Source of the DNA: Oscillospiraceae bacterium
Lineage (GTDB): Bacteria > Bacillota > Clostridia > Oscillospirales > Acutalibacteraceae
Reading direction: 5' to 3'
DNA: 64,000 nucleotides
NCBI GenBank assembly: GCA_015066205.1
Contig: SVOV01000006.1
Coordinates: 1 to 64,000, forward strand
Shown: positions 12,488 through 50,848 of the stretch, one piece after another
Position numbering within the stretch: the first letter of the stretch is position 1
Layout of the letters: each line of letters opens with the position of its first letter
The notes under the pieces: model-generated
What the model saw: the letters and a program-made list of their open reading frames with translations, nothing else
The model's database searches: none
What the model was told of the DNA's origin: nothing
Translations under genes and position numbers: made by a program

Positions 12488-12952
12488 ATGCAGAACAAAG
12501 CTAATGACACATACAGTTTATCACATACGAGTTGGAAGTGTCAATATCACATAGTGTTTGCGCCCAAATATCGCAGGAAAGCCATATATGGAAAATTGAA
12601 AGCAGAGATAGGCGCAATACTACGTGAGTTGTGCGAGCGCAAACACGTAAATATAATAGAGGCGCATGCAATACCGGATCACATCCATATGCTTGTAGAG
12701 ATACCACCGAATCAAAGAGTAAGTGATTTTATGGGGTATCTGAAAGGTAAAAGCACAATGATAATATTCGAACGCTTTTCTAACCTACAATACAAATATG
12801 GAAACATACATTTTTGGTGTAGAGGGTATTATGTCAGCACAGTAGGCGGTAATAAAGAAGGCATAGCAAAATACATCAGAGAGCAAGTGCACGAAGATCA
12901 AATATATGACCAACTAACACTAAAGGAGTACGCTGATCCTTTCAAGGAATAA
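12488..12952 (+). CDS. tnpA: IS200-type Y1 transposase
   Basis: 154 aa; WKCQYHIVFAPKYRR, PDHIHMLVEIPP (HxH), catalytic-Tyr region YYVSTVGGNKEGIAKYI. Confidence 0.95.
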   Translation: MQNKANDTYSLSHTSWKCQYHIVFAPKYRRKAIYGKLKAEIGAILRELCERKHVNIIEAHAIPDHIHMLVEIPPNQRVSDFMGYLKGKSTMIIFERFSNLQYKYGNIHFWCRGYYVSTVGGNKEGIAKYIREQVHEDQIYDQLTLKEYADPFKE

Positions 12953-13066: not shown

Positions 13067-13175
13067 ATTATAAGGAAATTGCTCGCGTTGTGAGCAATTT
13101 AGCTTATAACTAGAAACACCTATAGCCCCCAAGACCCAGGGTAGGGGGGTGACAAATCGTAAGATTTTTTCTTAT
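13067..13175. repeat. ~105-bp interspersed repeat, copy 2
   Basis: Matches copy 1 at 389-496 in the same orientation with about a dozen differences. Confidence 0.85.
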
Positions 13176-14614
13176 CGGAAATTATAATAACCGAAAATGA
13201 GCAGACCTACCATTAAAATATGGAAGAACGGGAGAACGGTTATATCTCCGCCAAAGGAAATAAGGAACTCCTTTACAGAGCTTGTTTTTTTGCGGTTTTC
13301 GATTATTCTTTGCGGACGGTAGAAATATGCAAGGTCGAAGAGAATATAGCCTACACAGTAGAAAATCCAGGTTTCCCAAAGAGTATAGCCTCTTAAAATC
13401 TGACCTACAAGTATAACTGCACCGAGTAAAATCAGGAAAATTCGTATAAGCTTGATGTTCTTAAAGTCCCAATAGCGTTCAAGTCCGTCGTGCTGTGCAA
13501 TAACATAATACATTGTAAAGCAGCAGATTATAGAAGCCATTGTTGTTGAACCGAGCATAACAAGGGCAAGGGGACCGACCATATAGCAAGGTCTCTCAAG
13601 AACCTCTACAATGTTCATATCAACCTCACCGAAAGCACGGGTGATTTTGTTTCCGTTTCTGCGGTAGGGAATGATAAAAAGGAAAATTGTGAGAATTATT
13701 ATGGCACAGAATACCCATGAAAGAATAGTGTCAACTGTTTCGGGAAGCATATACCAAAGCTCACCTGCTGCTTCAGCCTGTTCAAGGTTCTTTGCAGCGA
13801 GAGGCCAACCGAGAACAAAAGCACCTGCGATACCGAGTCCGTGGAAGCAGCCCTGAGTAAACTCCATAATTTTCCAGCCGTCAACTATCTTGAGCTTTTC
13901 CCACTTGCCGAAGAGCATTTTGCCGTTCTTTAAAGGATGAAGCTCCTTGTCATAGAATGTTATTGCAACAACCCAGCCGACTGATCCTGCAAGTGCGCCG
14001 CCGATCCACATTATAATGCCGAAAATATCGCGGCGTACAGCCATCATTATGAGCAAGCCTGCAACTACAACAAGATTGCGTCCCCATTCCTCGCGGCTGT
14101 CTTTAGAGAAACAGACTTTAGGCATTTTACCGTGTTCAGGGTCATATGGAGTGTTGAAAATTCGGTATCCTATTTCCTGTACCAATGGAACGAGTGCAAA
14201 GAAGATAACGAAATCATACCATTTATATACAACACCGCTCATTGCAGAAAAGCTTACACCGAGAAAGCCGGCGCCGAGTCCGCTCCAGATTGAACCCTTG
14301 AAAGCAAGAGCAAGATAGCCGAGGGAAGGATTGTATCTTGGGCTGTCGTGGTCAAGCACGAGACCCATTGTCGAACCGTAGGGCTCCATACCGCCGTAAA
14401 AATAGCCGAGAGCACAGGCTGCCGCGAACAGGAAAACATTGTTCATTAAAAGCTCCGACCCGGTATACCATACACAAAGAATACCCATAAAGGCTCCGGG
14501 CAGCATAGCACCTTTTTCACCGCCGATTGCCGAACCTCTTATGCCCCAGCCAAAGCACATTGTAATCATACTGATTGCCAGAAAAGCAAATATGTTCTGA
14601 GTTTCCATAAGCAA
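13172..14614 (-). CDS. Multi-TM integral membrane protein, unknown function, in sialidase-like cluster
   Basis: 480 aa, many hydrophobic segments, GWGIRGSAIGGEKGAMLPGAFMG. Confidence 0.7.
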   Translation of the reverse strand: MLMETQNIFAFLAISMITMCFGWGIRGSAIGGEKGAMLPGAFMGILCVWYTGSELLMNNVFLFAAACALGYFYGGMEPYGSTMGLVLDHDSPRYNPSLGYLALAFKGSIWSGLGAGFLGVSFSAMSGVVYKWYDFVIFFALVPLVQEIGYRIFNTPYDPEHGKMPKVCFSKDSREEWGRNLVVVAGLLIMMAVRRDIFGIIMWIGGALAGSVGWVVAITFYDKELHPLKNGKMLFGKWEKLKIVDGWKIMEFTQGCFHGLGIAGAFVLGWPLAAKNLEQAEAAGELWYMLPETVDTILSWVFCAIIILTIFLFIIPYRRNGNKITRAFGEVDMNIVEVLERPCYMVGPLALVMLGSTTMASIICCFTMYYVIAQHDGLERYWDFKNIKLIRIFLILLGAVILVGQILRGYTLWETWIFYCVGYILFDLAYFYRPQRIIENRKKTSSVKEFLISFGGDITVLPFFHILMVGLLIFGYYNFR

Positions 14615-14629
14615 TATCCTTTCTGATTT

Positions 14630-15667
14630 TTAGTTTTTATCTACGCGAACAACAGCATATCCGATTTTCTTGCGCCCGCAGGTGTAAACCATATGAAGCA
14701 GATTACCTTCTGCAACAATTGACGGATATGAAAATTCGACCTCGGGCTGAGTTTCCAGATCAATGCGGACAGGGTATGTCGCACCGTTATCATCAGAAAG
14801 AAACAGGCAAAGAGGTGTGCGGTCGCCCCAATTTTCGCTGACAGGATTGCAAATCAATCCCAGAACACCGCAATCGGTCATTGCCGCACCGATTCCGCTG
14901 TTATTATTCGGCATATCTGTAGGGCGTGCTACTGACCAGGTGCGACCGAAGTCAGTTGATTCACTGCGATATATCCAATTAAGATTTGTTCTTGCGAGCA
15001 TATAGACTCTGCCGTCGTGAGACTGATCCTCCCATATCGCAGGCTGAATCAAGCCCTCACCGTCCTTTGGAAGCTCCTCTTTTCTGTTGCATATTGTACC
15101 GTCAGGCAATTCAAATGCAACGGGAGCAGAAAGCTTCCAGGTTTCACCGTTATCCAAACTGCGGTCTGTCCACGCTTCCCAACGGTCACACAGATCCTCA
15201 GTTGAACCTGGAGCGAGAAGTGCACCGTCTGAAAGCCTTATCATCTGGTTTTTTACAGGACCTCTTCCGCCGATATCACCTGCAACAAGCTCCTTTGGAA
15301 CTGACCAGGTCTTTCCGCCGTCAGAGGAAACTGATTTCATTGAATACCAATGTCCCTCATCAATTCCGCTTTTGTATATTAGTGTAAGAATTCCGTTCTC
15401 TGAAAAAAGAGTAGGATTCCAGTCTGCCTCACCGTCATCGGGAGTAATCGGAACAGGAGTGCTCCAATCTCCGTCGCGGCGTGAGAACCATATGCGCACA
15501 TTAGGATTCTTTTCTTTTGTGCCGCCGAACCAGGCGGCTGTAGGCTTGCCGTCGCAGACAGCAACTGTCGCTGCGTGGCATTCGCCTGTTTCTTCGTTTA
15601 TACCTTCTGTTTCAAGGTATTCCTGATATAAAAGTTCTGCTTTTATCATTTTATCAATGTCTCCCAT
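14630..15667 (-). CDS. BNR/Asp-box sialidase-like protein (probable start at 15649, ATGA overlap)
   Basis: Asp boxes SSDGGKTWS, SLDNGETWK, STDFGRTWS, SDDNGATY. Confidence 0.75.
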   Translation of the reverse strand: MGDIDKMIKAELLYQEYLETEGINEETGECHAATVAVCDGKPTAAWFGGTKEKNPNVRIWFSRRDGDWSTPVPITPDDGEADWNPTLFSENGILTLIYKSGIDEGHWYSMKSVSSDGGKTWSVPKELVAGDIGGRGPVKNQMIRLSDGALLAPGSTEDLCDRWEAWTDRSLDNGETWKLSAPVAFELPDGTICNRKEELPKDGEGLIQPAIWEDQSHDGRVYMLARTNLNWIYRSESTDFGRTWSVARPTDMPNNNSGIGAAMTDCGVLGLICNPVSENWGDRTPLCLFLSDDNGATYPVRIDLETQPEVEFSYPSIVAEGNLLHMVYTCGRKKIGYAVVRVDKN

Positions 15668-16698
15668 TCTGAAATTACTGTATCTGCCACAAAACGGTTA
15701 TCTTCCTCACCGAGATTATAATAATAGAGAATATGTATCTCATTATTAAAAAACGCAATGCGGGGATATCCTATATCTGTGTTGACCGCATCGGTTCTCA
15801 GTGCTTTGGGCTCGCTCCAGATTTTACCGTCGCGAGTAGTTGTGATGAACAAGCCGCAGGGCGCTTGCCTTCTGAAATAAGCAAGCACAACCGTTCCGTC
15901 AGGTAATGTGCAGAGCGCAGGCGGGCTGCCTCCGCTCATATCCTCATCTATGTAGTTGAGCTTTGTTTCATAAATCCAAGTTTTTCCTTCATCGCCGCTC
16001 AGATAAACATCGAGCTGCGTAAAACCGGGCTCGTTTTCGCTTGCATAACGGGCTATTCCGAGTAACGACCCGTCAGGAAGTCTTGAGATAGCTGGCATAA
16101 TACTGAAGTCACCGTAGGGCGGGTCTTCACCCATCATTCCGAGCTTTTCCCATTTGCCGTCAAAAGTAAGCTTTGCAGCAAAGGTATTTCCCTCAAGGCC
16201 GTCAGCTTTAACACCTGTCATAGCAAGAAGATAATACCCGTCGCAAACAATATAATCTGTTCTTGCGCTCACACCGACAAGACCGAAATCGGGAATATAA
16301 AACGGACCATCCCAGCTTTTTCCTGCATCGTTTGTAACCATAAGCTGGGTAAACACATTACCGTCCCAGCCTGAAGGCATAAGATACAAGCCGCTTTCGG
16401 CAGTCAGCATATCTGCCGGTAAATCCGGAAGGCGTGTTTTGTTCTCATAATCAATTGCAGGAATCTTCGGGTATTCGTGAACCCATCCCGTTTCGGGACG
16501 GAATCTTGCAAACATTCTTATCGTAGGCTTTGTCCTGTCGAGCGCGTGAACATCCGGTCCGTTGTAATGATGGATACCCTTTTCAAAGCCGACAAGTAAT
16601 TCATCATTAAATTTCCATATGCCGTGATTTGCAGGCCAACCGAAAAAGTCAGTCTTGCCAATAGCCACAACATTGTGTGTTACTGTCATTTTTATCAC
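15646..16698 (-). CDS. BNR/Asp-box sialidase-like protein
   Basis: 350 aa; TNDAGKSWDG, SGDEGKTWIY, TTRDGKIWSEP. Confidence 0.7.
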   Translation of the reverse strand: MIKMTVTHNVVAIGKTDFFGWPANHGIWKFNDELLVGFEKGIHHYNGPDVHALDRTKPTIRMFARFRPETGWVHEYPKIPAIDYENKTRLPDLPADMLTAESGLYLMPSGWDGNVFTQLMVTNDAGKSWDGPFYIPDFGLVGVSARTDYIVCDGYYLLAMTGVKADGLEGNTFAAKLTFDGKWEKLGMMGEDPPYGDFSIMPAISRLPDGSLLGIARYASENEPGFTQLDVYLSGDEGKTWIYETKLNYIDEDMSGGSPPALCTLPDGTVVLAYFRRQAPCGLFITTTRDGKIWSEPKALRTDAVNTDIGYPRIAFFNNEIHILYYYNLGEEDNRFVADTVISEWETLIK

Positions 16699-16722
16699 CC
16701 TTTTGAATAATAATTATCAAAA

Positions 16723-16762
16723 GCCCCCAAATGAAATTTTTTCGTATTTCATTCGGGGGGAT
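16723..16762. terminator. Stem-loop in the intergenic region
   Basis: GCCCCCAAATGAAAT...ATTTCATTCGGGGGG. Confidence 0.6.
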
Positions 16763-16773
16763 AAGCCGAATAA

Positions 16774-17523
16774 TCAGCAGCTGTGCAATTCTTTATAAAT
16801 GCGGATGACCTCCTGAAGGTCTTCCTCTGTGTCTACGCTGACAGCTTTATAATGTGCAGGAGCGGGAACGATTTTAATTTTATAGCCGTGCTCAAGCACC
16901 TTGAGCTGTTCAAGTGACTCTGCCTCGGAAAGCGGAGTGGGTGCAAGCTTTGTATAAAGATTGAGGAATTCATGTGTATAAGCATAAATACCGATGTGTT
17001 CAAAATATCTTGCATGCTCTGCGTGTCGGGGGTAGGGTATGGGCGAACGGGAGAAATAGATAGCATTGCCGTTTACATCGCTGACTACTTTAACAACGGT
17101 GTTATTGAGAACATAATCTTCATCACCCGTGATCTCAAGACTGCCTGTTGCCATAACGCAATCGGGACTGTTTATCAGGGCAGAGCCTATATCATCAATA
17201 ATTTCAGGAGGAACAAGAGGCTCATCCCCCTGAATATTGATTACATAATCGCAATCATAATTACTTGCAGCTTCTGCAACACGGTCAGAGCCGGTAGGAT
17301 GGTTGACACTTGTCATAACTGCTTCACCGCCGAACGCAATAACAGCATCATATACGCGCTGATCGTCCGTTGCAACAACAACCTTACTGAGTACCTTTGA
17401 CTTGCTTGCATTTTCATAAACATGCTGGATCATAGGCTTTCCGCATATATCCTTAAGAGGCTTGCCCGGAAGACGGGAAGAACCGTAGCGGGCAGGAATA
17501 ACACCTAAAACTTTAGCACTCAT
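16774..17523 (-). CDS. kdsB: 3-deoxy-manno-octulosonate cytidylyltransferase homologue
   Basis: 249 aa; VIPARYGSSRLPGKPLKDICGKPMIQHVYE, NIQGDEPLV, YFEHIGIYAY. Confidence 0.9.
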   Translation of the reverse strand: MSAKVLGVIPARYGSSRLPGKPLKDICGKPMIQHVYENASKSKVLSKVVVATDDQRVYDAVIAFGGEAVMTSVNHPTGSDRVAEAASNYDCDYVINIQGDEPLVPPEIIDDIGSALINSPDCVMATGSLEITGDEDYVLNNTVVKVVSDVNGNAIYFSRSPIPYPRHAEHARYFEHIGIYAYTHEFLNLYTKLAPTPLSEAESLEQLKVLEHGYKIKIVPAPAHYKAVSVDTEEDLQEVIRIYKELHSC

Positions 17524-17540
17524 ATCAAAATCTCCTTTAA

Positions 17541-18752
17541 TTAAAAACTGTATTTTTCACGGATAGCGTTTCTCATCTTGTTGAGAGAGAACGGCTTGAT
17601 TTCATCGCAGATGCGCTCACGCATCTCTTTGCCTTCATCTGTATTCTGCGGAGCAGAGGTGAATTCAAGAGTTACACCGAGCTCTTTACAGACGCGGTCA
17701 ACAAAAATCGGCCAAAGCTCACCGATATCACCGATAACGGGAATGCTGTTTTCGAGGCGTGTAAATGCTGACATTTCCATACGGAACGGGATCTTTGTGA
17801 GCTTTGTCTTTGGAAGACCTTCATTGATTGCTTTCTGTATAAGCTCGCTCTGCTTGTTGAGATCCCATGAACGCTTAAGGTTTTCATCAAGGTCAAAACG
17901 GATGAGAGTCTTATCCTTGAGGCTGTATGTAGGAAGACCGTTCATTGAAGCCCATATACCGTGACCTGTGTATGTTTCAAAGGGACCGTCGTGGATTTCC
18001 TGAGTAAGAGCGACAGCAGATTCAATAATGACATCAGCCTCAGAAAGCATTTTGGCAATACGCTTGCAACGCTGGCTTACGGGAATACTGTCTGATATGC
18101 AAAGACCAACCTGACCGCCGCCGATGAGCTGGGGAACACTGACAAGGACAGGAACACCCTTGATTGCACCCGCACCGATCATTGTGTTCGGGTCAGCACC
18201 GAGACCTGCAACATACTCAAAGCTTTCTCCGAGTGTTTGTGCAGCAACCATGATTTCTGTTGAAACCGTTTCATTGAAATAACCGACAGGATAAGCCATA
18301 TTGCCTGCCGCCTTTATGATAACCTTACCCTCTGCCTGTTCGCAGATTGAAACAAGCTCTTCGTCAAGAGGAAGCTCCGAACGAATTCGTGCCCATTCCT
18401 CCTCGCTGAGCTGTGTAAGCTCGTAAATATTGCCGCGGCAACGGATGTTTTCGGGACATTTGTCGCCGAGAATATCCGCATCAAAGCGTTTTACTCTGTC
18501 GAGAGTACCGCCCATTTCATGAGAAATAACAGCAGAGCTTGTTGTTACGCCGTCAATAAGACCTGCGTGAATGAGAGCGGCAATAAGAGTTGTAACACCC
18601 TCGTGAAGATTCGGTCCGCTTCCTATAACAGCCGCAACCTTACCGCCGCGCTTTTTTACTTCTATAACCTTTTCAATAGCTGTGTTTAAAAATTCTTTTG
18701 TTTCATCAGGAAGTGCCTGATAAAGCTGTTCAACCAAAGCAGGTGATGCCAT
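17541..18752 (-). CDS. Uncharacterised 403-aa protein, possible NAD-binding (LOR/SDH or deoxyhypusine-synthase-like) fold
   Basis: VAAVIGSGPNLHEGVTTLIAALIHAGLIDGVTTSSAVISHEMGGTLD; family assignment tentative. Confidence 0.45.
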   Translation of the reverse strand: MASPALVEQLYQALPDETKEFLNTAIEKVIEVKKRGGKVAAVIGSGPNLHEGVTTLIAALIHAGLIDGVTTSSAVISHEMGGTLDRVKRFDADILGDKCPENIRCRGNIYELTQLSEEEWARIRSELPLDEELVSICEQAEGKVIIKAAGNMAYPVGYFNETVSTEIMVAAQTLGESFEYVAGLGADPNTMIGAGAIKGVPVLVSVPQLIGGGQVGLCISDSIPVSQRCKRIAKMLSEADVIIESAVALTQEIHDGPFETYTGHGIWASMNGLPTYSLKDKTLIRFDLDENLKRSWDLNKQSELIQKAINEGLPKTKLTKIPFRMEMSAFTRLENSIPVIGDIGELWPIFVDRVCKELGVTLEFTSAPQNTDEGKEMRERICDEIKPFSLNKMRNAIREKYSF

Positions 18753-18777
18753 AGTATATTCTCCTGTTCATAAATAC

Positions 18778-19341
18778 TTAAACATTAATTTTTTTGCCGA
18801 AGCAAGCATCGTCGTAGTCTATAGACAAAAGTGTAAAATTATACTTTTTGTAGAAGCCCATAGCTCTTTCGTTTCTCGGTCCGCAGGTAAGACAGACTCC
18901 GCAGACCCCTTTTTTTGCCAAATGGTCACACAGAGTGTCAATGAGCTTACCGCCCAAGCCCATTCTCTGATATTCAGGTAGAATATTAATATGAAAATGG
19001 GCAGGGTATTCTTCCTTGAATCTTTCGGGAACATTGTATGCGGTCGATGCCCATTCGTATCTGTCATCGCCGTAGCTGTCCGAGCGAGGAAGATATTCAC
19101 TGTCGAAGATCTTTTTGAAGTTGTCAAAGTTTTCTGCACAGATTATATAACCTACCACTTTGTCTTTATCTTCAAGAACGAAGCAGTTTTCAGGCTCATG
19201 CTCAATGTAATAATCGCAGAATGTGTTATGATAAAACAGTCCGGTCAAATAATTCGGCACTTCCTCGGGCCCTTCACTGTTATCGCACACAAAATGCATA
19301 TCAGCACGATCCTTTTCCTCGTATTTTCTGATAGATACCAT
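18778..19341 (-). CDS. GNAT acetyltransferase, OGA-HAT-like subgroup
   Basis: PENCFVLEDKDKVVGYIICAENF, LPEYQRMGLGGKLIDTL; paralogue at 38747-39301. Confidence 0.8.
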   Translation of the reverse strand: MVSIRKYEEKDRADMHFVCDNSEGPEEVPNYLTGLFYHNTFCDYYIEHEPENCFVLEDKDKVVGYIICAENFDNFKKIFDSEYLPRSDSYGDDRYEWASTAYNVPERFKEEYPAHFHINILPEYQRMGLGGKLIDTLCDHLAKKGVCGVCLTCGPRNERAMGFYKKYNFTLLSIDYDDACFGKKINV

Positions 19342-19457
19342 TATATCTCACCACCCTCAATCCGGTTTACAGGAATAGATTATCATAATGAATTAAAAAA
19401 AGCAACAAATTACTTGAAATTTTTTTGAAATAAGTGTATAGTTAAGATATACAGTTT

Positions 19458-20948
19458 TTGGGAGTAATTGCTATGAAATTTAAGGATAGTTTGACAAAAA
19501 AATCAGTAAAATCCTTGATAAATTTAATTATTTCAACTATGCCGAAGAGGTATTTTACAACACAGGAACGCTCGGATGAATTTATGCTTACGGGAGACAA
19601 AAAATTCCGTTCTGTAACCGGTAAAAATTGGACTGTCGGTTTCGGTAAAAAAGCATACACCCCTGATGATTATAACCAAAAGACATATTATATTGCCGGC
19701 TATGATTCTGATAATCCCGTTAAAGGGATACTTGATGACCTGTATGCAAGAGCAGTTTATATTGACGACAATACAGGTGACGGGGGTGTGATTTTCTGTG
19801 CACTTGATTGTGTCGGAATAAGCAGAAAGGATATAAATGACATAAGAAAGCTTGCTGTTGAAAGCGGAAGGCTCGGAAAGGTTAAATCAATTAACATTTC
19901 TTCAACTCATACGCACGCAGGAATCGATACTCAGGGGCTTTGGGGTAAAAAGATTTATAAAAGCGGTAAAGACAAAGCTTTTATGGATAAACTCAAAGAA
20001 TCCGCGGCTCAGGCTGTCATAACTGCTTTTGAGAGCAGGAAAGACGGAAAGCTATATTATGGTTTTGCTCCTGTTGAAGATATGCAGGCTGATGTCAGAA
20101 CTCCCGTAACCTATGACAAAAACCTGACAAAAATCCGCTTCTCTCCGGATGACAAATCCGGTGACATTTTCATAGTTAATTTTGCATCTCACGCAGAGCT
20201 GCTCGGAACAACATCGCTTGTCAGTGCCGATTTTCCCGCATATCTTATCAAGGAAATTGAGGACAGTGTTCCGGATGCTGATGCTGTTTTTTTCAACGGT
20301 GCCGTAGGCGGTATGATTTCTGCTAAGGAAATAAAAAAGGTCTACAGAGATTCTATCGACTGTGAAGCCTATATGAAGGACTTCGGAAGACAATTGGGCA
20401 AAGCAGTTCTTTCAATCCGAAATGAAACAGAGCTGAAGCCGATTCTTAATATAAGATCCAAGGGTGTTATTATTCCGGGAGAAAACACTGTGCTGATTCT
20501 TGCAAGATTTCTTAAGGTTCTCAATAACGATATAGGACGAACCGAAAAGAGAAGCAGGGCTTGTATTTATTCGGAAGTCGGATATATGGAATTGGGTGAT
20601 AAGGATGTTGCTGTTTTTCTTGTTCCCGGTGAGCTTTTCCCCGAGCTCTATAACGGTGAATTCCTGACAGAAAAGGACAGCGCAAATCACAGAAGGGCAA
20701 GCTATAAAACGGTCCTTTCCGAAATGACAGAGTGCAAGCACAAATTTGTTATCGGCCTTTGCAACGATGAGTTGGGCTACATTCTTGCTGAAAACGATTT
20801 TCTGCTTAATGAGACCCTGCCTTATATCAACAAGGCTACCGATGATATGGACAGAGACCACTACGAGGAAACTAACTCAACCGGACCTGAAACAGGCAGA
20901 ATTATTCTTGAAGAAACTGAAAAGCTGATCAGATCGGCTTATAATTGA
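19458..20948 (+). CDS. Neutral/alkaline ceramidase-like protein, paralogue 1
   Basis: 496 aa; SSTHTHAGIDTQGLWG, SADFPAYLIKEIE, GLCNDELGYILAENDF, HYEETNSTGP. Confidence 0.7.
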   Translation: MGVIAMKFKDSLTKKSVKSLINLIISTMPKRYFTTQERSDEFMLTGDKKFRSVTGKNWTVGFGKKAYTPDDYNQKTYYIAGYDSDNPVKGILDDLYARAVYIDDNTGDGGVIFCALDCVGISRKDINDIRKLAVESGRLGKVKSINISSTHTHAGIDTQGLWGKKIYKSGKDKAFMDKLKESAAQAVITAFESRKDGKLYYGFAPVEDMQADVRTPVTYDKNLTKIRFSPDDKSGDIFIVNFASHAELLGTTSLVSADFPAYLIKEIEDSVPDADAVFFNGAVGGMISAKEIKKVYRDSIDCEAYMKDFGRQLGKAVLSIRNETELKPILNIRSKGVIIPGENTVLILARFLKVLNNDIGRTEKRSRACIYSEVGYMELGDKDVAVFLVPGELFPELYNGEFLTEKDSANHRRASYKTVLSEMTECKHKFVIGLCNDELGYILAENDFLLNETLPYINKATDDMDRDHYEETNSTGPETGRIILEETEKLIRSAYN

Positions 20949-20958
20949 TTATAAGGAG

Positions 20959-22710
20959 ATGTCAACAATGAAAAAGCGTTCCCGTTCTTTTATCGCAATT
21001 CTTCTTGTATTTACTATGCTTTTTTCTGTAAACTCAATTACTGCTTTCGCAAGCGGTGAACAGGACAATAATCCCGTTTATTTTGTTTCAAATATGCTCG
21101 GAGGCTTTATTGACAGCTTGATAAGGCTGTTGGGTGTTCTTGCTCCCACGCCTGACTACTCGACGGTTGAGGAATACTTTGCATCAGACAGTGAAAATTT
21201 CTATAAAGGAACGGAAAGCTTTATTGACAATGCTGCCGACGGAGCAAAATGGTCTCTCGGCTTCGGCAAGGAAAGCATTGTTCCCGATAATCTTCGTGAC
21301 GGAAGCAAAGAATACTATACCGGCGGATATTTTACTCAAAAGGTCAACGGTGTTTTTGATGACCAGAAGGCTGTTGCAATCGCACTCAATGACGGGTCGG
21401 GACGCGGAACAACTGTTTTCGCTTCAATTGACGGTATCGGTGTCGCAAATGCAGATGTAAGGGCAATAAGGAGTGCCGTTGAGCTGAAACTCAGGGAAAA
21501 AGGTATTGTAAGTGATATCAATGCCATCAATATCAATGCAACGCATTGCCATACAGTTATTGATACTCAGGGTATCGGACTTGACCTGATACCGAAAATC
21601 TTTTCCAGCTTCTTCTTCGGAGCAAAACGGTCGATGAATACCGAGTTCCTTGAGGTTATGATAGACCGCACTTCCGATGCGATCGTTGAGGCATACGAAA
21701 ACACGGAAACAGGCAGGCTCTTTTATTTTGAAACCGCTGAAATGGGCAAGGACGAGGAGCATGGCTTGTATCTTGAAGACGAATATCCTTATCTTGTAAA
21801 CAAGAGATACTTTACCGAAAATTATCAGAATTTGTTTGCCTGCTTTAAGTTTGTTCCCGATAACAAGAATTCTGCGTCAACAATCTTAACAAATATAGGT
21901 GCTCACCCCACGCTTATTGACGAAGAAACGAAGCTTCTTTCTGCCGATTTTCCCGCATTTATGGAAAAGAAAATCAACGATGCCGGTATGAATTTTATGT
22001 TTATTCAGGGGGCGCAGGCTCCCGTTTCAGTTAATAAATGGGCTGAACTGCCCGTTAACACTGTAAGTGAGGTTGATGCAGAGATCGCACTGAATCCCTC
22101 CGCGGAGGATTATAAGACAGCTATTCTTTTCGGTTACGAGTTTGCAAGACTTGTGCTTGAGGCGCAGAATAACCTCAAAGAAATTGAGCCCATTCTCAAT
22201 GTAAAGATGACGGAATATACTGTTCAGGTCGAAACAGGTCTTTTAGGATACGGAGCGACAGAAGGCTTTATCGGCACAATGATGGTTGAGGATACGGAAA
22301 GCAAGACGGGCTATTCAATTGTGACGGAAGCCGGTTACATAGAAATAGGTAATGATATTGTTCTTCTGACCGTACCCGGCGAAATTGTTCCGCAGCTTAT
22401 TTACGGTAATGTTGTGACGGCTGAAGACTCATATCGCGGAACTCAATGGACTTATGAAGCAACTGCGGATCTTATACCGGAAGGAAAAACCGTTCTTGTT
22501 ATGGGACTTTGCAACGATGCCATAGGCTATATTCTTCCCGATAATGATTTCGCGCACTTTATCACGGACATCATCTGGGACGCAGACGGCGCAGAAAGAC
22601 TTTTTGGGCCGTACCGCAGACATTATGAGGAAATGCTTTCAGCCGGAAGTTCTGCAGGTTCAACAACTGTTTCGGTGCTTAATGAGCTTGCAAAGAGCAT
22701 AAATTCATAA
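20959..22710 (+). CDS. Secreted ceramidase-like protein, paralogue 2
   Basis: 583 aa, signal peptide; ATHCHTVIDTQG, SADFPAFMEKKI, GLCNDAIGYILPDNDF, HYEEM. Confidence 0.7.
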   Translation: MSTMKKRSRSFIAILLVFTMLFSVNSITAFASGEQDNNPVYFVSNMLGGFIDSLIRLLGVLAPTPDYSTVEEYFASDSENFYKGTESFIDNAADGAKWSLGFGKESIVPDNLRDGSKEYYTGGYFTQKVNGVFDDQKAVAIALNDGSGRGTTVFASIDGIGVANADVRAIRSAVELKLREKGIVSDINAININATHCHTVIDTQGIGLDLIPKIFSSFFFGAKRSMNTEFLEVMIDRTSDAIVEAYENTETGRLFYFETAEMGKDEEHGLYLEDEYPYLVNKRYFTENYQNLFACFKFVPDNKNSASTILTNIGAHPTLIDEETKLLSADFPAFMEKKINDAGMNFMFIQGAQAPVSVNKWAELPVNTVSEVDAEIALNPSAEDYKTAILFGYEFARLVLEAQNNLKEIEPILNVKMTEYTVQVETGLLGYGATEGFIGTMMVEDTESKTGYSIVTEAGYIEIGNDIVLLTVPGEIVPQLIYGNVVTAEDSYRGTQWTYEATADLIPEGKTVLVMGLCNDAIGYILPDNDFAHFITDIIWDADGAERLFGPYRRHYEEMLSAGSSAGSTTVSVLNELAKSINS

Positions 22711-34097: not shown

Positions 34098-35588
34098 TTA
34101 AAGGTTTGCAGAATTAATAAGCTTTTCCATTGCTTCAAGGAGAGTGCCTGCCGTTTTAGGGCCAACGGAATTTGTTTCCTCGTAATGCTTTCTGTTGAAA
34201 GAATCATAGGGAATGTTGAAATAGGGGAACCATTCGTGAAGCAGAAAATCGTTTTCAGGAATAATATAGCCTATTTCATCATTACAAAGGCCGATAACAA
34301 AATTATGCTCACAGCTGTTCATTGAAGCTAAAGGCTTATATTCGGCATCTGTTTTGTTTGCGGAATTGTCTGCTGTAAGGAAATTACCGCTTTCCAGTTC
34401 AGGAGAAAGCTCACCCGGAATCATATATACGCCTATCTGTTTATTGCCGAGCTCCATATAAGAAACCTCGGTTATAATAGACACATCGCTTTTACCTTCA
34501 ATTGAAATATCATTATTGAGAACACCGATATATCTTGCAAGAAGAAGAGCAGTGTTTTCACATAACACACTGACAGTTTCAGTTTTTATATTTATAAGAG
34601 GATCAAGTTCTGTTTCATTATTTATATCAAGAATAAGATCAGCTACATCCTTGCCGTATTCTTTTGTATGCTCTATACATTCTGAAAGCTCACCTCTGAG
34701 AAAACTGTCAATTTCAGCCCCTGTGATGAGATTTCCGATAGCACCGTTAAGGAAAACAACATTTGCTCCGTTTGTTTTTTCACTGATTTCCTTTGACATA
34801 TATGCGGGAAAATCAGCACTAACTACATTGGTTTTGCTTCCGAGCATTTCAGCGTGACAAGCGTAGTTAATGATATAAGTATCAGCACTCTTATCAAACG
34901 GAGAAAATCTGATACTTGTTATTGTTGTGTCAAAATCCACAGGGGTTCTTGTGTCAGTCTGTAAGCCCTCTGCTTCAGTTGTACCGAAATATAAATTGCC
35001 GTTTTTTCTTGTATTGTAGGCATCAATAATGGCAGCAGCTGTTTTTTCTTTAAGAGCTGTCATAAAATCATCATTTTTTCCGTCTGAGTAAAACGCCTTA
35101 CCCCAAAGGCCTTGGGTGTCAATAGCAGAATGGGTGTGAGTTGAACATATATTAATTGATTTCAGTTCGGGAATTTTTCCGCTGTCGATTACAGCCTGTC
35201 TTATATCATTAATATCGGCACGGCTCATTCCGACGCAGTCAATTGCACAGATTACAACTCCGCCTCTTCCTGTGTTATCGTCAATATAAACAGCCTTTGC
35301 AAGCATATCATCAAGTACTCCCGTTGCAGGATTATTGGTGTTGTAGCCTGCTATATAATATTTATCAGAAGAAACATCCTCGGGTGTAAGTACGGTACTT
35401 GAAAAACCGACTGTCCAATTTTCACCTGCTGTTTCAGAAAATATACCGTCACCCTTTAACATATATTTTTCTTCAGCTTCTTCGGTAGTGAACATAGAGC
35501 TCGGAACAGCTATTGTTATTAATGTGAGAAGAGCTGAAATAATTCTTCTCACAAGAGCGGGAAGACCGAGAAATCTTAGTATTTCCAT
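34098..35588 (-). CDS. Ceramidase-like protein, paralogue 3 (closest by eye to paralogue 1)
   Basis: 496 aa; CSTHTHSAIDTQGLWG, SADFPAYMSKEI, GLCNDEIGYIIPENDF. Confidence 0.7.
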   Translation of the reverse strand: MEILRFLGLPALVRRIISALLTLITIAVPSSMFTTEEAEEKYMLKGDGIFSETAGENWTVGFSSTVLTPEDVSSDKYYIAGYNTNNPATGVLDDMLAKAVYIDDNTGRGGVVICAIDCVGMSRADINDIRQAVIDSGKIPELKSINICSTHTHSAIDTQGLWGKAFYSDGKNDDFMTALKEKTAAAIIDAYNTRKNGNLYFGTTEAEGLQTDTRTPVDFDTTITSIRFSPFDKSADTYIINYACHAEMLGSKTNVVSADFPAYMSKEISEKTNGANVVFLNGAIGNLITGAEIDSFLRGELSECIEHTKEYGKDVADLILDINNETELDPLINIKTETVSVLCENTALLLARYIGVLNNDISIEGKSDVSIITEVSYMELGNKQIGVYMIPGELSPELESGNFLTADNSANKTDAEYKPLASMNSCEHNFVIGLCNDEIGYIIPENDFLLHEWFPYFNIPYDSFNRKHYEETNSVGPKTAGTLLEAMEKLINSANL

Positions 35589-35594
35589 TAGTTT

Positions 35595-37061
35595 TTACCT
35601 CCATTCAGCAATAAGGTTTTCGAATGCCTTTGAAAAAGCGGATGCCGTAAAAGAACCGGTTGAAACAGTTTCTTCATAGTGTCCTTCTTCATTTGATGCT
35701 GAATAATCATTGTCGGGAACAATGTAGCCGAGTGCGTCATTGCAAAGACCAAAAACGAGGATATCGTCATCGGATGAAAAATAAGAATTGAGAGGAGCGT
35801 GGGGATAGTTTGTTTTGTTATATGCTTCATCAGCCGAATAGAAGCCGCCGTAGATGAGCTCGGGCATTATTTCTCCGGGAGCTTCAATGATTTTTATATT
35901 TTCACCGATTTCGATATATCCGATCTCACTTGTGAGAAGAACCTTACCGTTTTCCTTGAATGCCTTTACATTGCAAAGACCGGCTCTTTCTGCAAGAAGA
36001 AAAATGAAATTGTTAACTTCAAAATCTACCTGTGCATGGGCTATATTGAGAACAGGCTCCACAGGTATTCCGTTTTCTGCAAGTGTATAAAGAATGTCAG
36101 CAACAATAAGTGAATATTCCTGCATCTTTTGGAAAGCAGTAAGCTCATTTGAAATGCCGACTCTCTGATCGGTATTAATATGAATAGCTCCGCCGATAGC
36201 TCCCTGAATAAAGATAAAGTCAGCATTCTTCTGAGCTGTTACAGCCTGTTCTATATAGTAAGGAAAGTCACCGGAAAGCTCTGAATTGCTCCAATCAAGA
36301 TTTACCGGATGAGCACCGAAATTTGTGATATAAATCTCTTTTCTTGTATTATCATTCGGAACAAACCTGAAAAGATGAATCTTCTCATCGACGGAATAAG
36401 GAGCTCTTCCGTCATAGAACATTTCGGGACAGGTCTTTGATGAATAATACATTGTTCCTTCGGTTTTGCTGTTATAGGCTTCTCTTATTGCTTCAGCTGT
36501 CTTTTCAATTACGGAATCAATATAAGCTTCATTTCTTCCGCTTTTCGGAATATTGCCCCAGAGACCCTGTGTATCAACAGCACTGTGCGTGTGAGTTGAA
36601 CCGATGTCAATACTTAAGAGCATTCCGTCACCTGTGATGTCATTGAGCTTTTCACGGATAGCCTTGATGTCGGCATTCATAAAGCCGACCGCATCTATCC
36701 ATGCAAATGCTGCCGCGCCTCTGCCTGAATTGTCATCAAGCACAACAGCTCTGACGCATAGATCATCAACAATTCCTGTTACCTCCTGTGCGGGGAATTT
36801 AAGATATCCTCCGAGAAAATATCTTGTTTTATCAATGTCTGCGGGAGTGAGGCTTTTTTTTGAAAACCCTGCTGACCACAACTCGGAAACAGCATCGTCA
36901 ATAAAGCTTTCAGAGCCTTCAAGAAAATTTTTGCTGATTTCTTCTTGGGGGCGTTCATCGTAGCCTGTTTTTGTTGCGCTCTGTAAGACGGCGCTTAAAA
37001 GCAAGGGAAGTCCCATAAGGACTGCCATAATTGCAGAAAACCATCTTGTTAACACTTCCAT
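35595..37061 (-). CDS. Ceramidase-like protein, paralogue 4
   Basis: 488 aa; GSTHTHSAVDTQGLWG, SGDFPYYIEQAV, GLCNDALGYIVPDNDY, HYEETVSTG. Confidence 0.7.
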   Translation of the reverse strand: MEVLTRWFSAIMAVLMGLPLLLSAVLQSATKTGYDERPQEEISKNFLEGSESFIDDAVSELWSAGFSKKSLTPADIDKTRYFLGGYLKFPAQEVTGIVDDLCVRAVVLDDNSGRGAAAFAWIDAVGFMNADIKAIREKLNDITGDGMLLSIDIGSTHTHSAVDTQGLWGNIPKSGRNEAYIDSVIEKTAEAIREAYNSKTEGTMYYSSKTCPEMFYDGRAPYSVDEKIHLFRFVPNDNTRKEIYITNFGAHPVNLDWSNSELSGDFPYYIEQAVTAQKNADFIFIQGAIGGAIHINTDQRVGISNELTAFQKMQEYSLIVADILYTLAENGIPVEPVLNIAHAQVDFEVNNFIFLLAERAGLCNVKAFKENGKVLLTSEIGYIEIGENIKIIEAPGEIMPELIYGGFYSADEAYNKTNYPHAPLNSYFSSDDDILVFGLCNDALGYIVPDNDYSASNEEGHYEETVSTGSFTASAFSKAFENLIAEWR

Positions 37062-37074
37062 AAAAATACCTCCG

Positions 37075-38658
37075 TCAGTTGAGAATTTCTTTCAGTTCAT
37101 CTTTTAAGTTCACATCATTTGATATCTTTGCGGGTAAAGAGTTATATTTATCAATAATAGCCGTAATTTCGGATTTTACTGATCCTTCTCTTTTTTGAAT
37201 AAACTCAAATATCTTATCAAAAAGATCGCATAGTACATAAAACTTTTCCGACCATTTCGTCAGTTCATTACATATAGGAATATCCTTCTTAAGGAAAGCT
37301 TTACTTTTATGCATTTTCTCAAGAAACTCATCGGATAACCGAGCAGCTGTTTCTTTATCACCTTTATTTAATGCCGTTTCTATTTTATCGAGTGCTTCAT
37401 ACATTCGCCTTGAATTAGAGTCCTTAAGACAAGATGTATAAAGGTGGTCTGCAAAAACAATAAAGGCTTCGGCATTTTCTTTTCCGATGACCTGAGCTAC
37501 TGCATTTTCAAACGATTCCTCGGAGCAGTAATCTTCACTGTTCCACAGAAAATCGGAGTATGTAATAAGGGGTATTTTCGAGCATTCGGCATATTCCATA
37601 CAGTTTGCTATTATGCCTTCCGAGTATTTCCATAAATCCTTATCGCGGTTAATGATGGGGGAGATGTGCATTTCGTTATACATAGAACAATCGTTTACGG
37701 GGTAATTGTCCCAGTAAAGAGGCTTATGGTGAGTTGCTTCAATAAATCTTATTGCCTCGTAACAGGTCAGTTCACGGGAGCATATATCTCTTCCTGTCCA
37801 AAATACAGATATAAGAGGATGAATATTCTGTCCGAGCTTTGAAATATAGTATTCGTCACCTTTACCGTGATAAAGGGTGGGGCAGACAGTAAGCTTAATT
37901 GAGGTGTCTATATCAAGCAGTGAAGAATACAATCTGTTTATAAGTGCAATGTGTGCTGTGACGGTTTCATTATAGAGAGCTTTGTCTTCTTCGTATTTAA
38001 GCTCATCGTCAATATCGTCCAAAAGCAACCCGAAATGCCTTGCACCGATATTATAAAGCTGCTCGCACTTTTTTATAAGGCATGAAAAGTCATTCTCATC
38101 GGAATACTTTATGGAAAGTCCCGGCGCTATGCACCAGTAAAAATCCATATAGTATTTTTTTGACAGACTGAGAAGCTCTTTCAGCTTTGAGAGTTCTTCC
38201 TCGGGATAAAGAGCATTCCATTTTTCCCTGTGGTATAAGTCATCTTTAGGTGCATAATACACGGTATTCATTCTGTTTTTTGCCATCAAAGACATTACGG
38301 AGCTGCGTTTTTCATCAGTCCAGGGAGTGCCGTAAAAGCCCTCAATATAGCCTCTTACACGAAATGACGGGCAGCATATAAATTTTCCGTTTGATATTCT
38401 GCCTTCTTTCTTGCGTTTTATAATATCGCATATGGCATAGAATGCACTTTTCTCACCCGAACATTCAATGCTGATATCATTATCGGAAATCGAGAGAATA
38501 TATTTTTCATCTGTGATTCTTTTTGATTTTTCACAATATGTAGTGAGCCGTGAATCATAATAAGATATGTTTATTCTGTATTCGTTCAGTGAATCACCGA
38601 ATAATTCGGAAACGGCAGGAATGCTATGCAAAAATATCACCTCATAACTAATATACAA
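37075..38658 (-). CDS. GH84 beta-N-acetylglucosaminidase (O-GlcNAcase/NagJ-like)
   Basis: 527 aa; VRGYIEGFYGTPWT, YYAPKDD, ARHFGLLLDDIDDEL catalytic DD pair. Confidence 0.9.
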   Translation of the reverse strand: MYISYEVIFLHSIPAVSELFGDSLNEYRINISYYDSRLTTYCEKSKRITDEKYILSISDNDISIECSGEKSAFYAICDIIKRKKEGRISNGKFICCPSFRVRGYIEGFYGTPWTDEKRSSVMSLMAKNRMNTVYYAPKDDLYHREKWNALYPEEELSKLKELLSLSKKYYMDFYWCIAPGLSIKYSDENDFSCLIKKCEQLYNIGARHFGLLLDDIDDELKYEEDKALYNETVTAHIALINRLYSSLLDIDTSIKLTVCPTLYHGKGDEYYISKLGQNIHPLISVFWTGRDICSRELTCYEAIRFIEATHHKPLYWDNYPVNDCSMYNEMHISPIINRDKDLWKYSEGIIANCMEYAECSKIPLITYSDFLWNSEDYCSEESFENAVAQVIGKENAEAFIVFADHLYTSCLKDSNSRRMYEALDKIETALNKGDKETAARLSDEFLEKMHKSKAFLKKDIPICNELTKWSEKFYVLCDLFDKIFEFIQKREGSVKSEITAIIDKYNSLPAKISNDVNLKDELKEILN

Positions 38659-38746
38659 TAAATAAAATTATAATTCAATACGAAATAATATGTGTTGAAT
38701 TTTTGCAAAACTGATGATAGAATCCATTATGTAAGGGGAGATCTTT

Positions 38747-39301
38747 ATGAACATAAGACCGTATGAAATAAAGGATAAGGATGCTGTTCATTTTGTTTGT
38801 CTGAACAGCGAAGGACCATGTAAAAGCTCTTTAAGAGGAATAAATTTCGCTTTGGCTGTATACTGTGATTATTATCTTGAAAATGAGCCCGAAAACTGTT
38901 TTGTTGCGACAGATGAAGATGATACAGCAATCGGATATATTATCTGTGCACAGGATTTTGATCTGTTCAAAGAGCGTTTTGAAAGTGAATACTGTACCCG
39001 TATAAAAAAATGGGAGTTTCGCAGAAGAAAATCAGCACACAGGTCAATTATCCCTCACGAAAAATATAAAGAGGAATATCCTGCCCATCTTCACATTGAT
39101 ATTCTTCCCGAATATCAGCGTATGGGATTAGGTCATAAACTGACAGATGCTTTGTTAACGCATCTTTGCCAAAAAGGGATCAAGGGGATTATGCTTACTA
39201 CCTGGATAAAAAATGTCAAAGGCAGAGGTTTTTATGAAAAATACGGCTTTTCTCTGCTTGCTGAAATGAAAAACTGTGCCGTTTACGGCATAAAGCTTTA
39301 A
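38747..39301 (+). CDS. GNAT acetyltransferase, OGA-HAT-like subgroup, divergent from GH84
   Basis: 184 aa; ENCFVATDEDDTAIGYIICAQDF, YPAHLHIDILPEYQRMGLGHKLTDAL. Confidence 0.8.
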   Translation: MNIRPYEIKDKDAVHFVCLNSEGPCKSSLRGINFALAVYCDYYLENEPENCFVATDEDDTAIGYIICAQDFDLFKERFESEYCTRIKKWEFRRRKSAHRSIIPHEKYKEEYPAHLHIDILPEYQRMGLGHKLTDALLTHLCQKGIKGIMLTTWIKNVKGRGFYEKYGFSLLAEMKNCAVYGIKL

Positions 39302-48671: not shown

Positions 48672-49739
48672 ATGTTTGAAAAGAGTTTAACTATAATTGA
48701 AAACGGGACCGGCTCGGCTTTTCCCTGTGCGGCAGTTGCTGTCGGAACGGGACATAATGTATTTGCCCGCCGTTTTTTCGGAGCTCGTCAGATAAAACCT
48801 TTGAAGCACTTGATTTCAGAGGATACTCTTTTTGATCTGGCATCGCTATCAAAAATTGTTTCAACAACTATGATTGCGTTAAAGCTTATTGAAACAGAAC
48901 AGATAAAGACGGAAGACAAAATCGGTAAATATTTGGGCTTTACGGGAAACTACTCTCAATGTGAGATAGGACATTTGCTGACACATACATCAGGTCTTCC
49001 TGCGGGGCTTCCTTTGTATTTGGTTACTCATAAAAACGGTGATGTGATTAATTCCATTCTTGAATCCGAGCCCTTATATAAAGTCGGAAATGATGTCTGT
49101 TATTCCTGTATGGGATATATAGTGCTACAGAGAATACTTGAAACAGCAGGGAACGAAAGTCTTGATAATTTAGCTCATAAATATGTTTTTACTCCATTAT
49201 CGATGAATAATACCTGTTATAATCCGAACTGTGAAAATGTAGCGGCAACAGAGCTGTATCCTCACAATAAGCAATGGGCTACAGGGCATGTTCACGATGA
49301 AAATGCATATTTTCTCGGCGGAGTTGCGGGAAATGCAGGCGTATTTTCTACTCTTGATGATATGATCTCATTCGTCGGTATGTGTTCTGAAATGGGAATG
49401 ACTAAAAACGGTGAAAAATATCTTAAAAGGGAAGTTTTTGAATCAGCAATAAGAAATTTTACTCCAGGAATGAAAGAAGCAAGAGGACTCGGATTTCAGC
49501 TTAAAAACGGCGTTGATTTCCCCGGCGGAGATTTGCTGTCAGACGGCAGCTACGGTCACACAGGCTTTACGGGAACGAGCTTTTATATTGATAAAGAAAC
49601 TAGACTTTGGGGAGTTCTTCTCACAAATGCCGTGCATTACGGAAGAGAGAACAGGGAAGATTATTTCAAGCTCAGAAGACAGTTTTATGATATGATGGTA
49701 ACTGAATATAAAATAATGAGAAAAGACGGTGAAATATGA
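48672..49739 (+). CDS. Serine hydrolase, beta-lactamase class C fold
   Basis: 355 aa; DLASLSKIVSTTMIALKL SxxK, YSCMGY YxN-like, HTGFTG. Confidence 0.85.
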   Translation: MFEKSLTIIENGTGSAFPCAAVAVGTGHNVFARRFFGARQIKPLKHLISEDTLFDLASLSKIVSTTMIALKLIETEQIKTEDKIGKYLGFTGNYSQCEIGHLLTHTSGLPAGLPLYLVTHKNGDVINSILESEPLYKVGNDVCYSCMGYIVLQRILETAGNESLDNLAHKYVFTPLSMNNTCYNPNCENVAATELYPHNKQWATGHVHDENAYFLGGVAGNAGVFSTLDDMISFVGMCSEMGMTKNGEKYLKREVFESAIRNFTPGMKEARGLGFQLKNGVDFPGGDLLSDGSYGHTGFTGTSFYIDKETRLWGVLLTNAVHYGRENREDYFKLRRQFYDMMVTEYKIMRKDGEI

Positions 49740-50848
49740 AAAATAAGGTTTTATGCGGAGCTGACAGAATAGTCCGTGACGGATATGTATTTAACGGCAG
49801 ATGCGGGCTTATTACAAATCATACAGGTGTGTTGAAAGACCTTGCATCTACCGTTGATATATTAAAAGATGTATGTAATCTTGTTGCTCTTTTCGGTCCG
49901 GAGCACGGTGTAAGAGGAGATAAGCAGGCGGGCGAAAATGTTTCATATTATACCGACCAAAAAAGTGCTTTGCCCGTTTACAGCTTGTATGGTGAAAATA
50001 CTTTTGAAGCGGAAAGAAAAATTTCTTCTCTTGATACTCTTATTTTTGATATTCAGGATGTTGGAGCAAGATTTTATACATATCAATACACTTTGACCGA
50101 TTCAATGAAAATATGCGCCGAAAACGGCGTTAAATGCATTGTTCTTGACCGTCCTAACCCATTGGGCGGTATGAGAGCGGAGGGAACAATTCTTGACAGC
50201 CGCTTTTCTTCTTTTGTCGGAAGATTTCCGACGCCTATAAGAAGCGCTCTTACAATAGGCGAATTCGCTATGATGATGAACGAAACCGAAAGAATAAGCT
50301 GCGATCTGTCTGTTATACCAATGGACGGATGGAAAAGGGATATGTATTTTGATGATACCGATCTTGTGTTTATTCAACCGTCACCGAATATCCCTACTGT
50401 TGATACAGCATTTTCTTATATCGGAACCTGTATTTTTGAAGGGACAAACATTTCCGAGGGCAGAGGAACAACAAAGCCGTTTGAAATGATAGGAGCCCCT
50501 TGGCTCGACAGCGGGAGAGTTATTGATTTGATGGGTAATTGTGACGGTGTAATTCTTCGTGAATGTTCTTTTACACCTACTTTTTCTGACTATAAAGATA
50601 TATTCTGTCACGGAATACAGCTTCATATAACTGACAGAAATCTGTATTCACCGTTTTCAGTAGGAATTAAGCTTTTTGACATAATAAACAGAACTCATAA
50701 AGAATTTGAAATCGAGCCATTCTTATTTAATCTTACAGGAACCGATGAAATTATTAAACCTGATTTCTCGGCAGAGGATTTTATAAAAAGAGAAACAGAA
50801 AAAACAATACAATGGCGGAATTTTTCAAAAAAGTGGCATATGTATTAA
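49736..50848 (+). CDS. namZ: DUF1343 / NamZ-like exo-beta-N-acetylmuramidase
   Basis: 370 aa; GLITNHTGV, LFGPEHGVRGD, DIQDVGARFYTYQYTL, LDRPNPLGG; ATGA overlap with upstream gene. Confidence 0.88.
   Translation: MKNKVLCGADRIVRDGYVFNGRCGLITNHTGVLKDLASTVDILKDVCNLVALFGPEHGVRGDKQAGENVSYYTDQKSALPVYSLYGENTFEAERKISSLDTLIFDIQDVGARFYTYQYTLTDSMKICAENGVKCIVLDRPNPLGGMRAEGTILDSRFSSFVGRFPTPIRSALTIGEFAMMMNETERISCDLSVIPMDGWKRDMYFDDTDLVFIQPSPNIPTVDTAFSYIGTCIFEGTNISEGRGTTKPFEMIGAPWLDSGRVIDLMGNCDGVILRECSFTPTFSDYKDIFCHGIQLHITDRNLYSPFSVGIKLFDIINRTHKEFEIEPFLFNLTGTDEIIKPDFSAEDFIKRETEKTIQWRNFSKKWHMY

Follow-up and report, generated by a model that had tools for sequence, protein, structure and literature searches.

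A divergent GH84 glycosidase and OGA-HAT-like acetyltransferase gene pair in Clostridia and its possible place in peptidoglycan-sugar salvage

The gene pair and its immediate neighbours

The window, by which we mean the whole stretch of 64,000 nucleotides that was analysed, carries a GH84 beta-N-acetylglucosaminidase gene and, on the opposite strand, a gene encoding a GNAT acetyltransferase that resembles the HAT-like domain of animal O-GlcNAcase (OGA; Table 1). An earlier interpretation drawn from the letters alone (the sequence-only reading) had described the two as unfused neighbours, 88 bp apart, of domains that animal OGA joins in one protein. Both open reading frames lie where it had placed them, on opposite strands and unfused. 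The 88 bp hold for the frames as called, the longest frame of GH84 being 37075-38658 on the minus strand. A GAGGTG ribosome-binding site located six bases (ATATTT) 5' of a TTG at position 38631, together with the point at which homology begins, suggests that this TTG is the true GH84 start, so that the gap is likely 115 bp.

Table 1. Features of the window, with positions, strand and the basis of each assignment
Feature	Positions	Strand	Basis
GH84 beta-N-acetylglucosaminidase	37075..38631	minus	518 aa; PF07555 4e-96, PDB matches
Divergent control region	38632..38746	none	alignment of 20 intergenic regions
OGA-HAT-like GNAT acetyltransferase	38747..39301	plus	184 aa; sequence, profile and fold matches
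Neutral-ceramidase-like protein 1	35595..37061	minus	PF04734 2.5e-9; THTH motif conserved
Neutral-ceramidase-like protein 2	34098..35588	minus	N-terminal hydrophobic segment; next in operon, 6 bp gap
Beta-lactamase-family serine hydrolase	48672..49739	plus	PF00144 9e-45; directly upstream of NamZ
NamZ (exo-beta-N-acetylmuramidase, GH171) homologue	49736..50848	plus	PF07075 2e-79, PF20732 8e-37
Second GNAT of the OGA-HAT-like family	18778..19341	minus	
Gene set around the second GNAT	13172..22710		
Small ORF	12488..12952		IS200-type transposase-like by eye

The GH84 protein combines a TIM barrel with a helical bundle, and its closest solved structures by PDB sequence comparison are 5diy (which we take to be TtOGA), BT_4395 and NagJ, with human OGA next. 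The catalytic pair of its PF07555 domain, Asp205-Asp206 in the 518-residue numbering, lies within LLLDDIDDEL, the motif on which the sequence-only reading had relied, and is invariant in seven homologues, as is the WDNYPVND motif in the homologue alignment. Hydropathy of its N-terminus reveals no signal-like or hydrophobic stretch. A second short GH84, of 552 aa, is encoded on contig C75 of the window genome (L002 / L060), with no GNAT adjoining. In the region between the paired genes, hexamers read by eye form a promoter-like element on the GNAT side, TTGAAT (38695-38700) and TAGAAT (38718-38723) with a 17 bp spacer. Alignment of the 20 intergenic regions reveals a TTGATT...TAAACT block shared by relatives; towards GH84 another block is likewise conserved and, again by eye, reads as a minus-strand promoter.

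The first ceramidase-like gene begins 13 bp beyond the GH84 stop and is likely in one operon with it. The family profile of its product matches 4wgk at 3e-5, Foldseek matches the model (pLDDT 73) to 2zws at 5e-16, and the N-terminus reads as a membrane anchor or signal (hydropathy 2.5). The second ceramidase-like protein, which taken alone has no Pfam match, is 36% identical to the first, and the order of the two genes is common to three loci of relatives (L042, L043, L045). The NamZ homologue of the window has no signal-like N-terminus, and the serine hydrolase encoded directly before it has no strong PDB match. By analogy with Bacillus subtilis, where the order is murQ-murR-murP-amiE-nagZ-ybbC (PMC5061867) and AmiE is thus encoded near nagZ and ybbC (now namZ), this hydrolase could be a muropeptide amidase.

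The sequence motifs of the GNAT singled out in the sequence-only reading are present, and the likeness to the animal HAT domain that they had suggested is borne out by profile and fold. With the single sequence, the top PDB matches are 4bmh (SsAT, 4e-16) and 3zj0 (OgpAT, 4e-10), followed by generic GNATs among which OGA 6r45 appears at 8e-4. A profile built from 32 relatives matches 4bmh at 6e-30 and 3zj0 at 1e-22. Its matches to the HAT domains of human OGA (715-903) and Trichoplax OGA, at about 1e-10, span the full length (positions 2-176), whereas RimI- and NAA-type GNATs align mainly with its C-terminal half. The AlphaFold model (mean pLDDT 96) gives Foldseek TM scores of 0.86 to 4bmh, 0.80 to 3zj0 and 0.79-0.80 to 6r45, the other matches listed reaching 0.68 or less. 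Predicted helices at 71-107 sit where SsAT and OgpAT bear insertions, and the fold superposes. Given that the best full-length matches by both profile and fold are SsAT, OgpAT and the OGA HAT domain, the likeness represents real homology. An assignment to the generic Rim/ElaA-type GNATs, proposed earlier as the outcome that would speak against the idea, is ruled out by the same profile matches and TM scores.

Animal pseudo-HAT domains have lost the acetyl-CoA P-loop and catalytic residues; the window GNAT retains both. Pairing of its residues by hand with His185/His187 and Gln195-Gly200 of SsAT (PMC3919268) identifies His114 and His116 (HLH) and a P-loop, Q124-R-M-G-L-G129, whose G127 and G129 are invariant in the alignment of relatives. 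Human OGA has TDPSVA at the P-loop position (PMC3919268). Because QRMGLG and HLH are intact, the GNAT, unlike the animal pseudo-HAT, is predicted to have acetyltransferase activity. The literature on the SsAT structure is not uniform: PMC12494797 labels 4BMH a Saccharomyces cerevisiae pseudo-HAT, PMC3919268 describes it as a Streptomyces sviceus acetyltransferase, and the PDB calls it SsHAT.

Gene context and co-occurrence in relatives

Conservation of the adjacency had been named as a check on the sequence-only reading, and the neighbourhood is indeed kept: the family survey shows the divergent GH84-GNAT layout in three further genera, and a public genome collection adds some two dozen loci that have it. 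At L042, L043 and L045, which belong to other genera of the same family, two ceramidase-like genes (CER) and GH84, divergent from GNAT, adjoin genes for a MurNAc/GlcNAc-type kinase, MurQ and NamZ, and most close relatives share this type I setting of MurQ, MurK-like kinase and NamZ. The MurQ of the relatives exceeds the curated cut-off, and the best PDB match of the kinase is 8zo3, a MurNAc/GlcNAc kinase, at 7e-22 (4e-21 for the copy next to MurQ in the window genome). The combination of MurQ with an amino-sugar kinase, characteristic of peptidoglycan recycling, is adjacent to the pair in relatives; in the window genome the two genes are together on another contig. NamZ likewise lies inside the cluster in many relatives, these three loci among them, and about 10 kb from the pair in the window.

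Different subclades bear other layouts: GH84-SIS2-NAGK-CER divergent from GNAT, GH84 divergent from GNAT-NAGK-SIS2, and a co-directional GNAT-NAGK-(SIS2)-GH84. On the GNAT tree the linkage to GH84 undergoes at least 15 changes of state, a number inflated by contig ends. In the type II clusters MurQ gives way to a SIS2 protein, and these may therefore handle a different sugar. At L047, L124, L128, L129, L135-L137, L139 and L142, and also at L148, L149, L152 and L158, a 'sugar isomerase' with a SIS domain (PRK02947-like) replaces MurQ, suggesting a second amino-sugar route. Among 80 loci of the public collection, GH84 is present in 42 (flank <=6 kb), a ceramidase-like gene in 56 and a kinase in 49; ceramidase-like genes, ahead of GH84, are the commonest neighbour of the GNAT family. 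Outside the family, a survey of the phylum at E<=1e-15 (399 genomes, limited candidates scored) detected the GNAT in two genomes besides the window genome, at loci where no GH84, MurQ or NamZ is seen and one of which, L168, is a 6.4-kb contig.

Profile searches of 150 genomes of the family detect GH84 in 18, the GNAT in 29, true MurQ in 8 and NamZ in 7. The GNAT is present in all 13 genomes that have a short GH84 and in none of the five other GH84 genomes, four of which have a large multidomain GH84 and one a GH84 cut by the contig end (p 4e-11). Since the division into short and long was noticed after seeing the data, the association of GH84 as a whole with the GNAT (p 1.8e-7) is the safer figure, and because the genomes are related MAGs, these p values and those that follow overstate independence and serve as guides only. 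MurQ and NamZ are each far over-represented in genomes with an adjacent pair, occurring in four of five (p 1.7e-5 and 8.5e-6). Five genomes have both MurQ and NamZ: four of them (G000, G133, G145, G148) have GH84 and GNAT side by side and lack a strong NagZ, and the fifth, G132, has a NagZ-like GH3 at 5.5e-44 and neither GH84 nor GNAT. The remaining pair genome, G056, in which a regulator gene lies between the two, is without MurQ or NamZ. NagZ-type GH3, the hexosaminidase of known recycling clusters, was not found above cut-off in 30 genomes; G000 and G145 have no match up to 1e-10, and G148, G133 and G056 just GH3 matches of 45-55 bits. The recurrent layouts and this co-occurrence rule out adjacency by chance.

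Proposed peptidoglycan-sugar salvage and the alternatives to it

To the pair we assign, at a probability a little under one half, a role in the salvage of peptidoglycan sugars, in which GH84 would replace NagZ and the GNAT would N-acetylate glucosamine-ended fragments for GH84. Sugars, probably of muropeptide origin, would be imported; NamZ would trim their MurNAc ends and GH84, standing in for the usual GH3 NagZ, their GlcNAc ends, presumably in the cytoplasm, where both enzymes look to reside judging by their N-termini. A MurK-like kinase would phosphorylate the sugars and MurQ would take off the lactyl ether. GH84 enzymes act by substrate-assisted catalysis and require the 2-acetamido group of the substrate, so that they cannot cut the glucosamine-ended fragments of a de-N-acetylated cell wall. 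Such a wall is plausible, as polysaccharide deacetylases are encoded in all six of the genomes searched. The GNAT, using acetyl-CoA, would N-acetylate glucosamine, or a related amino sugar, and so yield a GH84 substrate.

That the GNAT would acetylate glucosamine-ended fragments is proposed by analogy, with moderate confidence, because of three precedents. The fungal RmNag joins a glucosamine N-acetyltransferase to a GH3 hexosaminidase in one protein and cuts (GlcN)2 only when acetyl-CoA is present (PMC4680927). An enzyme of Clostridium acetobutylicum, as cited in a passage of PMC4680927, acetylates GlcN ends before cleavage by beta-N-acetylglucosaminidase. The acceptor cavity of SsAT fits a small polar molecule, from which its authors inferred a small-molecule acceptor (PMC3919268). 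RmNag shares with the window pair the pairing of hexosaminidase and GNAT, acetylation enabling the cutting of GlcN oligomers; it differs in having GH3 rather than GH84 and a tandem GNAT, the window GNAT being a single 184-aa domain. The pairing is therefore analogous and the arrangement not homologous, and no entry named RmNag is among the 60 best PDB matches of the GNAT profile. Several findings weigh against the salvage reading as a whole: the distance of NamZ and the separate contig of MurK-MurQ in the window genome, the pair of G056 with neither MurQ nor NamZ, the SIS2 protein of the type II clusters, the exported ceramidase-like proteins, which have no place in the scheme, and the existence of GNAT paralogues that accompany ceramidase-like genes without GH84 or sit at unrelated places, so that the GNAT family extends beyond the pair and is not defined by GH84 alone.

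It is possible, if on the unlikely side, that the pair instead salvages another glycan containing GlcNAc or amino sugars, such as mucin, chitin or exopolysaccharide oligosaccharides, the GNAT acetylating a different amino sugar or an amine, such as might be set free by the ceramidase-like amidases that are exported. In its favour are the GNAT-CER loci, which form the majority and many of which are without GH84, the type II clusters with NAGK and SIS2 rather than MurQ, and the animal-gut habitat of the named relatives, by which the window genome too is judged a gut-type Clostridia MAG. This leaves unexplained, however, why MurQ and NamZ, rare in the family, stand beside the type I pair, and GH84 and NamZ both look cytoplasmic.

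The function implied by the sequence-only reading was that of a true split O-GlcNAcase, in which bacterial proteins would lose their O-GlcNAc to GH84, with the GNAT binding or regulating that enzyme in the manner of the animal HAT-like domain. Both halves are homologous to OGA, the two genes share a divergent promoter region, and an O-GlcNAc system has been reported in the source bacterium of 5diy, the best-matching solved GH84 (PMC4683255, from which the name TtOGA is in part taken). Yet OGA proper is a single polypeptide with a GT41 partner, and here there are two frames on opposite strands and no GT41 O-GlcNAc transferase (PF13844) in six genomes (the window genome, a congener and four pair carriers), although controls were detected; absences are soft in the window genome, which is 85% complete. 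Moreover, the GNAT has the motifs of an active enzyme, it has paralogues without GH84 nearby, and six type I clusters are without a linked GH84. Each of those six genomes has one GH84 elsewhere (6/6), so these clusters neither prove nor exclude that the GNAT is a regulatory subunit tied to GH84 by position. With no OGT found and salvage genes around the pair, we regard the O-GlcNAc function as improbable; the homology and the arrangement recognised in the sequence-only reading stand, and the function it implied is not supported.

Gene order inherited by shared ancestry, with no functional coupling, would explain why the majority of type I loci, which belong to related MAGs, have one gene order in common. 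It fares slightly worse still, given the divergent, co-directional and distal GNAT-GH84 layouts in several subclades, with the changes of state counted above, and the complete lack of a short GH84 without GNAT in the 150 genomes. Least probable is a GNAT for resistance or stress, directed for instance against an aminoglycoside-like or nucleoside toxin and sharing the locus by accident: this role is common for GNATs of such size and NCBIfam gives weak matches to ArsN and AAC(6')-type families, but these fall far under cut-off, linkage to GH84 and an amino-sugar kinase recurs in several arrangements over the GNAT tree, and the co-occurrence with short GH84 is complete.

Relation to known systems

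The unfused pair of GH84 and an OGA-HAT-like GNAT is itself already described: Rao et al. (2013) found OgOGA and OgpAT in one operon of Oceanicola granulosus and remarked on the likeness to the domain order of OGA (PMC3814719). That pair (2xsa, 3zj0) is alike in consisting of separate neighbour genes, the GNAT having an acetyl-CoA-binding P-loop. It is unlike the window pair in that OgpAT, whose function is stated as unknown, lies immediately downstream of GH84 (PMC3814719), whereas the window pair is divergent, belongs to Clostridia and has neighbours of MurK, MurQ and NamZ type in relatives. What is new here is the genomic context; we found no link of an unfused GH84-GNAT pair to cell-wall recycling in the open-access literature. 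SsAT (4bmh), the closest solved structure of the GNAT, has the His-x-His and the P-loop in common with it and is 24% identical in structural alignment. The muropeptide cluster of B. subtilis likewise combines MurQ, a NamZ/YbbC family protein and a hexosaminidase, but its NagZ is an extracellular GH3, whereas the Clostridia cluster has a GH84 without signal and, in addition, the GNAT, a MurK-like kinase and ceramidase-like proteins. The context suggests that, where peptidoglycan sugars are salvaged, GH84 may stand in for NagZ as a non-homologous substitute.

Animal OGA (human and Trichoplax; 5m7r, 6r45, 9qep) has a homologous GH84 core and HAT-like domain; the window pair differs in being two proteins, with P-loop and histidines intact and no OGT partner found. 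Why animal OGA should have a HAT-like domain that is unable to bind acetyl-CoA has yet to be explained (PMC3814719, PMC12494797), and a genetically linked pair in bacteria, its GNAT intact and its metabolic neighbourhood defined, points to a specific acceptor that the ancestral enzyme may have acetylated. Should the salvage reading be true, the pseudo-HAT may be a catalytically dead descendant, or fossil, of such an acetyltransferase. The wider proposal, that animal OGA owes its two-domain architecture to a bacterial partnership in wall recycling, between a glucosaminide N-acetyltransferase acting on the 2-amino group and a GH84 dependent on the resulting acetamido group, and that gut Clostridia keep an unfused version of it replacing NagZ, is speculative, and we consider it rather doubtful.

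The window holds a further member of the GNAT family, divergent from two more ceramidase-like genes (Table 1). After these come genes for a 403-aa protein, a cytidylyltransferase, one or more BNR/sialidase-like proteins and a conserved protein of 480 aa that matches no Pfam family. This set is without GH84 and recurs in about 15 of the 80 related loci; a small transposase-like frame is found in the window at 12488-12952.
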